DNA from: Vibrio crassostreae
GTDB taxonomy: Bacteria; Pseudomonadota; Gammaproteobacteria; Enterobacterales; Vibrionaceae
NCBI RefSeq assembly: GCF_024347415.1
Contig: NZ_AP025476.1
Coordinates: 3,224,001-3,288,000, forward strand
Length of the DNA: 64,000 nt
Direction of reading: 5' to 3'
Every line of letters starts with the position of its first letter. Positions within the stretch are counted from its first letter, which is position 1. The position numbers and the translations under genes are program-made. Below, in pieces: positions 5,096 through 63,000 of the stretch. The notes beneath the pieces were generated by a model. That model was not told the DNA's origin. It made no database searches and was given only the letters and a program-made list of their open reading frames with translations.

Positions 5096-5134
5096 TATTA
5101 TGTGAACATTCCAGCGGCGAATGTTCACATAATA
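5096..5134. repeat. Perfect 16-bp inverted repeat between aspA and dcuA
   Basis: TATTATGTGAACATTC at 5096-5111 is exactly mirrored at 5119-5134 around a 7-base GC-rich centre (cagcggc). No T-tract follows, so it is not a classical terminator. It ends 10 bp before the dcuA Shine-Dalgarno. It may act as an operator, an mRNA 5' stabilising hairpin or a copy of a dispersed palindrome. Confidence 0.85.
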
Positions 5135-5156
5135 AAATCTAAATGAGGTGTTACTT

Positions 5157-14537: not shown

Positions 14538-14676
14538 ACCACTAAAGTAACATGGATATTTATTCCCAAGCCGGAATAAATATCCATTAGCCAAAGAATA
14601 AAACCCCAAAATAAAAGCAACAAACCAGAATATTATTTGGTGATCGCCTTCAAAAAGATAACTATCCTTTAGTGGT
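14538..14676. repeat. 10-bp outer inverted repeats bracketing a palindrome
   Basis: ACCACTAAAG (14538-14547) and CTTTAGTGGT (14667-14676) are exact reverse complements about 120 bp apart and bracket the 15-bp hairpin. The layout resembles a small non-coding element, but no target-site duplication is obvious. Confidence 0.5.
14552..14587. repeat. Perfect 15-bp inverted repeat after pyrI
   Basis: ATGGATATTTATTCC (14552-14566) is mirrored exactly at 14573-14587 with a 6-nt loop (caagcc). It sits where a pyrBI terminator would be expected, but there is no T-tract. Confidence 0.82.
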
Positions 14677-14834
14677 AGACTCAATGCATAGATGATCATA
14701 CATCTCGCATACCCTTCCTTCTCTACTTCGGGATTCATCGGTAAGCCTAATTAATAATCGTACTCTACGGCTTTGGGAGTGCGTTCTGCGCTATGGACAA
14801 GCGATATCCACACGTTGACCTTAAGGAGTTGTTC

Positions 14835-59866: not shown

Positions 59867-59897
59867 AAAAAGGCCGGTGGTTAATAAACCACCAGCC
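59867..59897 (-). terminator. rplL-rpoB attenuator
   Basis: On the minus strand GGCTGGTGGTT (59897-59887) pairs with AACCACCGGCC (59882-59872) with one U-G pair, followed by five T residues. It lies between rplL and rpoB, where E. coli has its partial terminator. Confidence 0.82.
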
Positions 59898-59929
59898 ATT
59901 AGCCTTGCGGCTATGAAATTAAGTAATAA

Positions 59930-61060: not shown

Positions 61061-61099
61061 TTAGGCGCAGAAGTATACACTAAATCTGCGCCTAAGCAA
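61061..61099 (-). promoter_or_regulatory. rplJ promoter inside a hairpin
   Basis: On the minus strand: -35 TTGCTT (61099-61094) or TTTGCT one base earlier, 16-17 bp spacer, -10 TATACT (61077-61072), then a GC-rich discriminator TCTGCGCC. TTAGGCGCAGA (61095-61085) and TCTGCGCCTAA (61071-61061) are exact reverse complements, 11-bp arms around a 13-nt loop, and the -10 is the last six bases of that loop. The -35 directly follows the rplA stop codon. Confidence 0.72.
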
Positions 61100-61100
61100 A

Positions 61101-61805
61101 TTAGTTTGCTTGAGTGTCAAGACTAGCTTGATCAACAGCAACACCAGCACCCATCGTAGTAGAGATGCTTACTTTCTTCAGGTAAGTACCCTTAGCTGAA
61201 GAAGGCTTAGCTTTCTTAAGAGCAACTAGAAGAGCTTCTAGGTTCTCTTGAAGCTGGTTAGCTTCGAAAGATGCTTTACCGATAGTAGTGTGGATGATGC
61301 CGTTCTTGTCGTTACGGTAACGAACCTGACCAGCTTTAGCGTTCTTAACCGCTTCAGCAACGTTAGGAGTTACAGTACCAACTTTAGGGTTTGGCATAAG
61401 GCCGCGTGGACCTAGGATTGTACCTAGTTGACCAACAACACGCATTGCATCTGGAGAAGCAACAACAACGTCGAAGTTCATTTCGCCTTTTTTCACTTGC
61501 TCAGCAAGATCTTCCATACCAACGATATCTGCGCCAGCTGCTTTAGCTGCTTCTGCGTTTGCACCTTGAGTGAACACAGCAACACGGATGTCACGGCCAG
61601 TACCGTGAGGTAGCACAGTTGCGCCACGAACGTTTTGGTCAGATTTACGAGCATCGATGCCTAGGTTAACAGCAACATCTACAGACTCAACGAATTTAGC
61701 AGTCGCTAGTTCTTTAAGAAGAGCAACAGCTTCGTTGATTTCGTATTCTTTAGTCGCGTCAACTTTGTCGCGGATTACGCGCATACGCTTAGTAAGTTTA
61801 GCCAT
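61101..61805 (-). CDS. rplA: 50S ribosomal protein L1
   Basis: 234 aa. Begins [16 protein letters not shown]; two-domain L1 fold with the conserved [18 protein letters not shown] (about 128-145) and [10 protein letters not shown] near the C-terminus. It binds 23S rRNA at the E-site stalk and, in E. coli, its own operon leader to repress rplKA. rplK is 4 bp upstream on the same strand. The rplJ promoter lies immediately after it. Confidence 0.98.
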
Positions 61806-61809
61806 GATC

Positions 61810-62238
61810 TTATCCCTCTACCACTAGGCCCATTGAACGAGCAGTACCAGCAATAGAACGCTTCATTGCTTCGATGTCAGCACCAGTCATATCAGCAGCT
61901 TTAGTTTCTGCGATTTCCTGTACTTGAGCGTCAGTTACAGTACCAACTTTCTCAGTGTTTGGACGACCTGAACCAGACTTAACGCCAGCAGCTTTCTTAA
62001 GAAGAACAGCAGCAGGTGGAGTCTTAGTTACGAACGTGAAAGAACGGTCGTTGTAAACAGTAATAACTACTGGAGTAGGTAGACCTTTCTCAACAGACTC
62101 TGTTTTTGCGTTGAACGCTTTACAGAATTCCATGATGTTCACGCCGTGTTGACCTAGAGCAGGACCAACCGGTGGACTTGGGTTTGCCATACCAGCTGCA
62201 ACTTGCAGTTTGATATAAGCTTCAACTTTCTTAGCCAT
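61810..62238 (-). CDS. rplK: 50S ribosomal protein L11
   Basis: 142 aa. Starts [20 protein letters not shown] followed by [20 protein letters not shown], the conserved N-terminal domain, and has the C-terminal rRNA-binding domain with [12 protein letters not shown]. It forms the GTPase-associated centre and is required for RelA activation; it is methylated by PrmA (gene at 36.8 kb). Its leader starts at the hairpin-embedded promoter and would carry the L1 autoregulatory site. Confidence 0.98.
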
Positions 62239-62328
62239 GATATTTCCTAATATTTTGGGTACATGCGCTAGCCGTAAGGCGAGCTCCCCATAAATTCAAT
62301 TAACTCTTTTTTACTTCCGAAGAAGCAA

Positions 62329-62368
62329 AAAGGCGCGAAATTATAATCATAATTCGCGCCTTTAACAA
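62329..62368 (-). promoter_or_regulatory. rplK promoter inside a hairpin, also a possible nusG terminator
   Basis: On the minus strand: -35 TTGTTA (62368-62363), 17-bp spacer, -10 TATAAT (62345-62340), discriminator TTCGCGCC. AAAGGCGCGAA (62363-62353) and TTCGCGCCTTT (62339-62329) pair perfectly: 11-bp arms, 13-nt loop, the -10 being the last six bases of the loop. Five T residues follow (62331-62327), so the same hairpin can end the secE-nusG transcript. Confidence 0.75.
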
Positions 62369-62451: not shown

Positions 62452-63000
62452 TTAGTCCAGTTTTTCAACCTGACCAAATTCAAGCTCAACTGGTGTTGCA
62501 CGACCAAAGATCGATACAGATACCTTAATGCGGCTTTTCTCGTAATCTACTTCTTCAACAGTACCGTTGAAGTCAGCAAATGGACCATCGTTCACACGAA
62601 CCACTTCACCCGCTTCGAACATTGTCTTAGGACGTGGAGACTCGCTCGCTTTCTCTAGACGGTTCAAGATAGCATCAGCTTCTTTATCAGTGATTGGTGC
62701 AGGACGATCAGAGGTACCACCAATGAAGCCCATAACACGCGGAATGCTGCGTACTAAGTGCCATGATTCATCATTCATGATCATTTGAACTAATACGTAG
62801 CCAGGGAAGAATTTACGTTCACTTTTACGACGTTGGCCAGCACGCATTTCCACTACTTCTTCAGTAGGTACTAGCACATCGCCAAATAGTTCTTCCATGT
62901 TGTGCATTTTAATATGCTCGCGTAGCGACTGTGCAACACGACCTTCAAAGCCAGAAAAGGCTTGAACTACATACCAACGTTTTTTTGGAGCTTCACTCAT
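62452..63000 (-). CDS. nusG: Transcription termination/antitermination protein NusG
   Basis: 182 aa. N-terminal NGN domain ([40 protein letters not shown]) that binds RNA polymerase beta', and a C-terminal KOW domain ([20 protein letters not shown]) that binds Rho or S10. Complete. Follows secE by 13 bp; a hairpin element separates it from rplK. Confidence 0.98.

Follow-up and report, generated by a model that had tools for sequence, protein, structure and literature searches.

In a 64 kb stretch of Vibrio crassostreae DNA (the window), the promoters of the ribosomal-protein genes rplK and rplJ each lie inside a perfect inverted repeat, and the question is whether these repeats serve the promoter, the message that ends in front of it, or both. 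The two sites are on the minus strand, one in the gap between nusG (62452..63000), the last gene of the upstream secE-nusG unit, and rplK (L11; 61810..62238), the other between rplA (L1; 61101..61805) and rplJ (L10; 60356..60850). Gene coordinates are from the ORF list, and the names are those we assume from recognising the proteins and their order. In both repeats the arms are 11 nt long, 100% complementary and 13 nt apart (rplK, 62329-62363, with arms at 62329-62339 and 62353-62363; rplJ, 61061-61095, with arms at 61061-61071 and 61085-61095). Read in the transcript sense they are AAAGGCGCGAA-ttatgatTATAAT-TTCGCGCCTTT followed by TTGC, and TTAGGCGCAGA-tttagtgTATACT-TCTGCGCCTAA followed by TATTTG. 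The -10 hexamers, TATAAT for rplK (62340..62345) and TATACT for rplJ (61072..61077; TATAAT in most of the Vibrionaceae rows aligned), form the 3′ edge of the loop and end exactly where the right arm begins. The -35 candidates, TTGTTA (62363..62368, 17 nt spacer) and TTGCTT (61094..61099, 16 nt spacer, a weak match found at a similar place in relatives), share one and two bases, respectively, with the left arm. The left arms, paired in relatives, would be at rplK (AAAGGCGCGAA) both promoter spacer and first half of a nusG terminator hairpin, and at rplJ (TTAGGCGCAGA) the first half of a hairpin that follows rplA. The right arms, TTCGCGCCTTT and TCTGCGCCTAA, correspond to a GC-rich discriminator (TTCGCGCC and TCTGCGCC) and the start region, with the rplK transcript predicted to begin at about 62334. 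With hexamers 16–18 nt apart, both sites fit the layout of a sigma70 promoter; that of rplK matches the consensus at 10 of 12 positions, while that of rplJ is weaker and falls below the consensus-scan rule, yet is similarly placed in relatives.

This layout of arms, loops, hexamers and discriminators is as given in a preliminary description of the locus, two details of which need adjusting. Five T residues were said to follow the rplK hairpin; the run exists (TTTTT, 62327..62331), but three of its five bases lie within the arm. The two arm sequences were called unrelated; across relatives the arms do vary widely, but in the window both contain GGCGC/GCGCC. The lack of a T-tract after the rplJ hairpin was confirmed. 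The five-T run at rplK would be the T-tract of a putative intrinsic terminator and would also be among the first transcribed bases of the rplK mRNA, falling at about +3 to +8 (62331-62327). A run of T at the start site can give reiterative, UTP-sensitive initiation, as in promoters of the pyrBI type.

Just these two sites show the 11/13 geometry among the 19 perfect inverted repeats of the 64 kb window (arms of at least 10 nt, loops of 3–30 nt). Folded as RNA, the rplK hairpin has a predicted energy of −19.9 kcal/mol (z −4.9) and the rplJ hairpin one of −19.0 kcal/mol (z −4.2), and none of 200 dinucleotide shuffles was as stable in either case. In the rplK fold, an additional four bases of the loop are paired on either side, next to a one-base bulge, which would make the working loop shorter than 13 nt. 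Neither hairpin matched Rfam at the gathering threshold; the sole match in the window at that threshold is P26 (59.1 bits), on the minus strand in the rplL-rpoB gap (59871-59926). Elsewhere in the window, a 13 bp perfect inverted repeat (1336-1369) reaches the start codon of a superoxide-dismutase-like ORF at 1368 and in RNA would base-pair across the ribosome-binding site, a perfect 16 bp repeat (5096-5134) lies just upstream of an ORF start at 5148, and a perfect AT-rich repeat of 15 bp (14552-14587) is found in the gap before an arginine-repressor-like ORF at 14793.

The window was compared with 198 loci, one of which (L103) is from its own genome. These were rplK loci from 80 named genome contigs, E. 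coli K-12, 30 loci from matches in 242 of 247 Vibrionaceae genomes, 27 further loci from matches in 137 of 138 genomes of the order, and 60 regions hand-chosen for variety from those Vibrionaceae and order-wide matches. Grouped by label or name by the analyst, 158 belong to the Enterobacterales (the GTDB order), 84 of them to the Vibrionaceae, and 40 are outgroups. At each locus the best-scoring sigma70-like site of the intergenic region was taken as the promoter (for rplJ, within the first 110 nt past the rplA stop codon), and an enclosing stem was then sought. In the Enterobacterales, a promoter scored above the cut-off in 153 of 158 loci at rplK and 146 of 158 at rplJ, and a hairpin surrounded it in 137 and 138 of these, respectively. 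The same hairpin rule picked out 59 of 2026 promoter-like sites (2.9%) on the window's chromosome, where the promoter cut-off was stricter (11, compared with 9.5 in relatives). The sample leans towards the Vibrionaceae, but outside this family hairpins occur in 12 (rplK) and 13 (rplJ) other families designated by letters, and in named Enterobacteriaceae, Shewanella, Aeromonas, Pseudoalteromonas and Psychromonas.

Both promoters share one register, in which the dyad axis lies a single base 5′ of the -10 hexamer. Over the 11 columns downstream of the -10, the Watson-Crick fraction at this register is 0.74 for rplK and 0.69 for rplJ, against 0.16–0.36 at 17 other registers. At least 9 of 11 pairs form in 96 of 128 distinct rplK segments (at most 4 at any of the other 17 registers) and in 79 of 117 distinct rplJ segments (at most 15, from the neighbouring register). 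The arms differ widely between groups while pairing stays, as in AGGGGCAGCGA, GCGGGTGCGAATT and AAAAAGGCCGCTGATTA for rplK, or GAAGCGAG, AAAGTGCG and AGTTCGACG for rplJ, and stems span some 7 to 23 columns. In a phylogeny of rplA and rplK built with FastTree from all 158 Enterobacterales loci, with 16 other registers as control, two-sided changes from one pair to another fell on 40 branches at the rplK register (3–16 elsewhere) and on 60 at the rplJ register (5–29 elsewhere). When the tree was limited to the 144 loci that carry at least one of the two hairpins, the values were 33 (1–14) and 63 (3–27). All two-sided changes, paired or unpaired, also peak at the register on the 158-locus tree, although less sharply. 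Compensatory changes exceed those of slid registers at both promoters, which is the pattern of a structure under selection, and the arms are conserved as pairs, one of the points on which the preliminary description had said it could be refuted.

The pairing also carries information about which molecule folds. With the register set on Watson-Crick pairs alone, and counting distinct stems that have no fewer than 7 of 10 such pairs, G.U outnumbered A.C in the sense strand by 47 to 10 at rplK and 75 to 26 at rplJ, under a scoring with no preference for G.U. Register-shifted controls drawn on the same sequences gave ratios of 0.78–2.04, from a count whose scoring does favour G.U, and the rplJ ratio of 2.9 is just moderately above them. 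An excess of G.U over A.C is expected if the folding strand is the sense RNA; the base changes point clearly to this at rplK, and at rplJ the sense RNA is probably the folding strand.

What follows the stem differs between the two sites. In the 8 nt past the last G/C of the arm, rplK has a mean of 5.9 T (138 hairpin-bearing loci) and rplJ 4.2 (139 loci); most rplJ tails are poor in T, such as TAATATTT, found in 46 of the 139. The suggestion that the rplK hairpin resembles a nusG terminator is therefore supported by both stem and T-tract; a consensus terminator scan with loops limited to 3–8 nt called no terminator at this site. In E. coli K-12, the rplK site (GCACAAGGCGTGAGATTG-gaata-CAATTTCGCGCCTTTTGT-ttttatg) has a 14-pair stem, including two G.U pairs, followed by TTGTTTTTATG, and reads as an intrinsic terminator. 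The promoter scorer is less decisive in this species, where a TATAAT beside the rplK start codon scores 12.2 versus 12.1, and at rplJ another TATAAT downstream of the hairpin is favoured (15.7 versus 13.0). E. coli is consequently counted as hairpin-less at rplJ, although the homologous TACAAT sits in a hairpin.

Many outgroup loci carry such hairpins, with hardly any recognisable promoters. A sigma70-like site exceeded the cut-off in one of 40 loci at rplK and in none of 40 at rplJ, but the nusG-rplK gap contained a terminator-like site in 24 of 40 loci, against 0.2 in shuffles. Near the rplA stop codon, a stem of at least 7 bp occurred in 22 of 40 loci (4.4 in mononucleotide shuffles), although by dinucleotide shuffles just 16 of 40 fell below z = −2, and the terminator rule was met there in 2 of 40 loci (1.4 in shuffles). 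Hairpins without a recognisable promoter indicate that those at both places are independent of the promoter, and the division into a probable terminator at rplK and a plain hairpin at rplJ holds beyond the Enterobacterales.

The best explanation, to which we assign a probability of about 0.7, is that each site holds two signals on the same 35–40 bases, a hairpin of the upstream message that would act as RNA and a promoter of the next operon that would act as DNA. Since the nested layout is kept by compensating mutations in many relatives, a single piece of DNA probably closes one message and opens the next. As RNA, the rplK site would be the intrinsic terminator of secE-nusG, with a strong hairpin and a U-tract, while the rplJ site would form a strong hairpin without a U-tract just past the rplA stop codon. 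As DNA, the left arm would be the spacer between -35 and -10, the apex the -10, and the right arm the GC-rich discriminator and start region. Initiation would occur inside the right arm, so that the left arm would be missing from primary rplK and rplJ RNAs and only read-through RNA could fold into the hairpin. Start sites, termination and RNA protection are all inferred here from sequence. The simplest account of the origin of this arrangement is that a hairpin ending the message existed first and came to hold the next operon's promoter; the 3′ half of a terminator, with its AT-rich apex, GC-rich arm and T-tract, is similar in composition to a -10 with GC-rich discriminator and start region, which may have eased the merger. 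At rplJ, the likeliest role of the hairpin is to protect or define the 3′ end of the rplKA mRNA, and it may also slow polymerase or weakly attenuate it.

Promoters that lack the hairpin agree in part with this dual-signal reading. Nine of the 16 such rplK promoters of the order are accompanied by a separate terminator-like site, compared with 2.7 in shuffles. In L067, L068, L182 (where it is a dedicated terminator) and L138 (one of two, since this locus has terminator-like sites on both sides of the promoter) the site precedes the promoter; in L024, L025, L134, L136 and L185 it occurs only downstream of the predicted rplK start. The downstream-only group is not accounted for by the dual-signal reading, and at the other seven (L027, L040, L071, L128, L129, L176 and L187) the terminator rule found no site. 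In three Pasteurellaceae loci (L025, L134 and L138), a T-tract hairpin begins a few bases downstream of the predicted rplK start; it would be carried by the rplK RNA and is possibly an attenuator. Of eight hairpin-less rplJ promoters, L134 alone has a terminator in front of the promoter, and L189 has a weaker one after it. At rplJ, L025 and L189 fall narrowly below the stem cut-off, and the strong stem of L133 is in another register. The L134 terminator, between rplA and the promoter, is AAACCGCACTTT-ttt-AAAGTGCGGTTT-TTTG. It is built on AAAGTGCGGT in inverted orientation, a sequence resembling the DNA uptake sequence of Pasteurellaceae.

The alternative that survives best concerns the rplJ hairpin only, and holds that its main role is to attenuate read-through from rplKA, perhaps assisted by NusA or NusG, rather than to stabilise RNA. 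The full intrinsic-terminator-like site at the same place in L134, the CTTTTAG that follows the arm in L023, and the terminator-like appearance of the sister site at rplK all favour it, and we regard it as a possible, though less likely, role: most rplJ tails are T-poor (4.2 of 8), and outgroups meet the terminator rule after rplA no more often than shuffles do. RNase processing, 3′-end protection and weak attenuation would fit the evidence at rplJ equally.

A bolder version joins the two signals in a relay, in which the polymerase that ends nusG at the T-tract releases its RNA, rebinds sigma and restarts at rplK. From the geometry, a polymerase terminating at the rplK site would come to rest over the promoter, some ten bases beyond the start, where it would either block initiation briefly or favour a restart; the proposal that termination and initiation exclude each other there is thus plausible. 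As reported in PMC6978380, RNA polymerase often stays on the DNA after intrinsic termination and can restart nearby in vitro on other templates, and such retention means that restart at rplK may be favoured. By analogy the relay is conceivable, but we consider it unlikely. If true, upstream-unit output would pass straight into the ribosomal-protein operon with read-through of nusG blocked, and the rplJ hairpin would be a softer version acting through pausing.

Less probable still is a device at the level of DNA, in which a cruciform responding to supercoiling, or a mirrored discriminator tuning ppGpp control as the preliminary description had proposed, governs initiation. The dyad axis is fixed relative to the -10 in both promoters, and the AT-rich centre and GC-rich discriminator are suggestive, but a cruciform involves both strands and should tolerate G.T and A.C equally, which is not what the mismatches show, and many outgroup loci have hairpins at both places with no recognisable sigma70 promoter. 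The separate terminator-like sites at some hairpin-less rplK promoters further weaken a supercoiling or ppGpp role.

Nor is the register enriched among promoter-like sites in 2.45 Mb of chromosome 1. A general promoter feature was rejected on this ground (2959 or 4705 sites), and the search for further copies that had been proposed thus shows that the layout is not general on this chromosome. In a scan of 1.65 Mb, two of 1355 promoter-like sites had at least 9 of 10 pairs at the register; they were rplK and rplJ, both with 10 of 10 Watson-Crick pairs. Across 2.45 Mb, four sites had a stem score of at least 10 in register, and in three of them, rplK, rplJ and rpsP, all ribosomal-protein operons, the stem covered the discriminator. 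The strictest rule gave one further same-register copy, the rpsP promoter, and a looser rule found 14 of 4705 sites in register, with 3–25 in other registers.

The rpsP promoter follows ffh on the minus strand, with the hairpin GCCCCGGAAT/ATTCCGGGGC (L235:18225-18270; G000 C1 ~2942225-2942270). Its arms compensate within the genus (GCTCCGG/CCGGAGC, CCTCGG/CCGAGG) and a T-rich stretch comes next. A stem of at least 7 at r = −2 was found in nine of nine loci of the window's genus, and a stem of at least 7 in just two of 42 other loci (L362 and L377); being nearly confined to the genus, it is a local case. At rpsM (alpha operon), stems of at least 7 occurred in 7 of 31 loci, six of the seven in a different register. 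There the promoter after rpmJ has a hairpin of the type AGCTGGCT-aga-TTAGCCAGC with the -10 in the apex, again in a different register, in several families (E. coli K-12, L350:5050-5110; several of L378-L396; L404). Several of these 'promoters' are probably leader RNA, which makes rpsM a lead only. Among 15 upstream regions of E. coli, taking the four best sites of each, rplK had the strongest stem (15.8), rplJ had 9.5 at TACAAT, and weaker stems were seen at rplN, rpsM, rplU, rpsJ, pnp and others.

The perfect symmetry and 11+13+11 layout would also suit an operator bound by a dimeric transcription factor, but this is very improbable, as half-site sequences are not conserved across relatives whereas pairing is, and stem lengths vary; the variation of the arms thus disfavours a protein operator, as the G.U bias over A.C disfavours a cruciform. 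Accidental pairing of an AT-rich -10 and GC-rich discriminator with the spacer can be dismissed, as the preliminary description had anticipated, for although GGCGC/GCGCC is common to both sites in this genome and some pairing between ATTA and the -10 is inherent, on the right-hand side the columns counted do not include the -10, and both the genome background, set against the hairpin counts in relatives, and the register controls reject it.

Compared with known systems, the rplK site is like an intrinsic terminator in its GC-rich stem, T-tract and position directly after a gene end, but differs in that a whole sigma70 core promoter is enclosed in it, the -10 being at the apex; a U-tract, part of such terminators, is lacking at the rplJ site. 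In E. coli, the frd terminator/ampC attenuator overlaps the expression signals of ampC, and the terminator acts in the ampC leader. There, too, the end signals of one operon share DNA with the start signals of the next, whereas here the start lies inside the 3′ arm, and the new RNA would escape the hairpin. Some 3′ stem-loops protect mRNA ends without terminating. The rplJ site resembles these in being a stable hairpin past a stop codon with no U-tract, and hairpins at this place are also found in outgroup loci with no recognisable promoter; it differs in the promoter nested inside. The E. coli secE-nusG and rplKAJL-rpoBC cluster has the same genes, its PL11 and PL10 are presumably the same two promoters by homology, and both hairpins were found in K-12. 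A 1990 paper in J Bacteriol on E. coli secE-nusG may already have reported a nusG terminator beside or over the rplK promoter (PL11); of the present findings, we judge earlier publication least likely for the rplJ hairpin, the register common to both sites and the covariation. Titles and abstract openings of the best matches in the open-licence literature describe no promoter nested in a hairpin after nusG or rplA, and excerpts of PMC5371410, PMC10931766, PMC7815308 and PMC10687069 contain nothing on a promoter nested in a hairpin.

In at least a dozen families, then, a hairpin kept by compensating mutations overlaps both promoters of the cluster at the same offset. The rplKAJL-rpoBC cluster is among the classic systems of bacterial gene regulation. 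If the dual-signal reading is right, one stretch of DNA can end one message and start the next, and mutations in the spacer or discriminator of rplK or rplJ may alter two things at once. The sites also offer a natural template for asking whether a polymerase, once released at a terminator, restarts in place.
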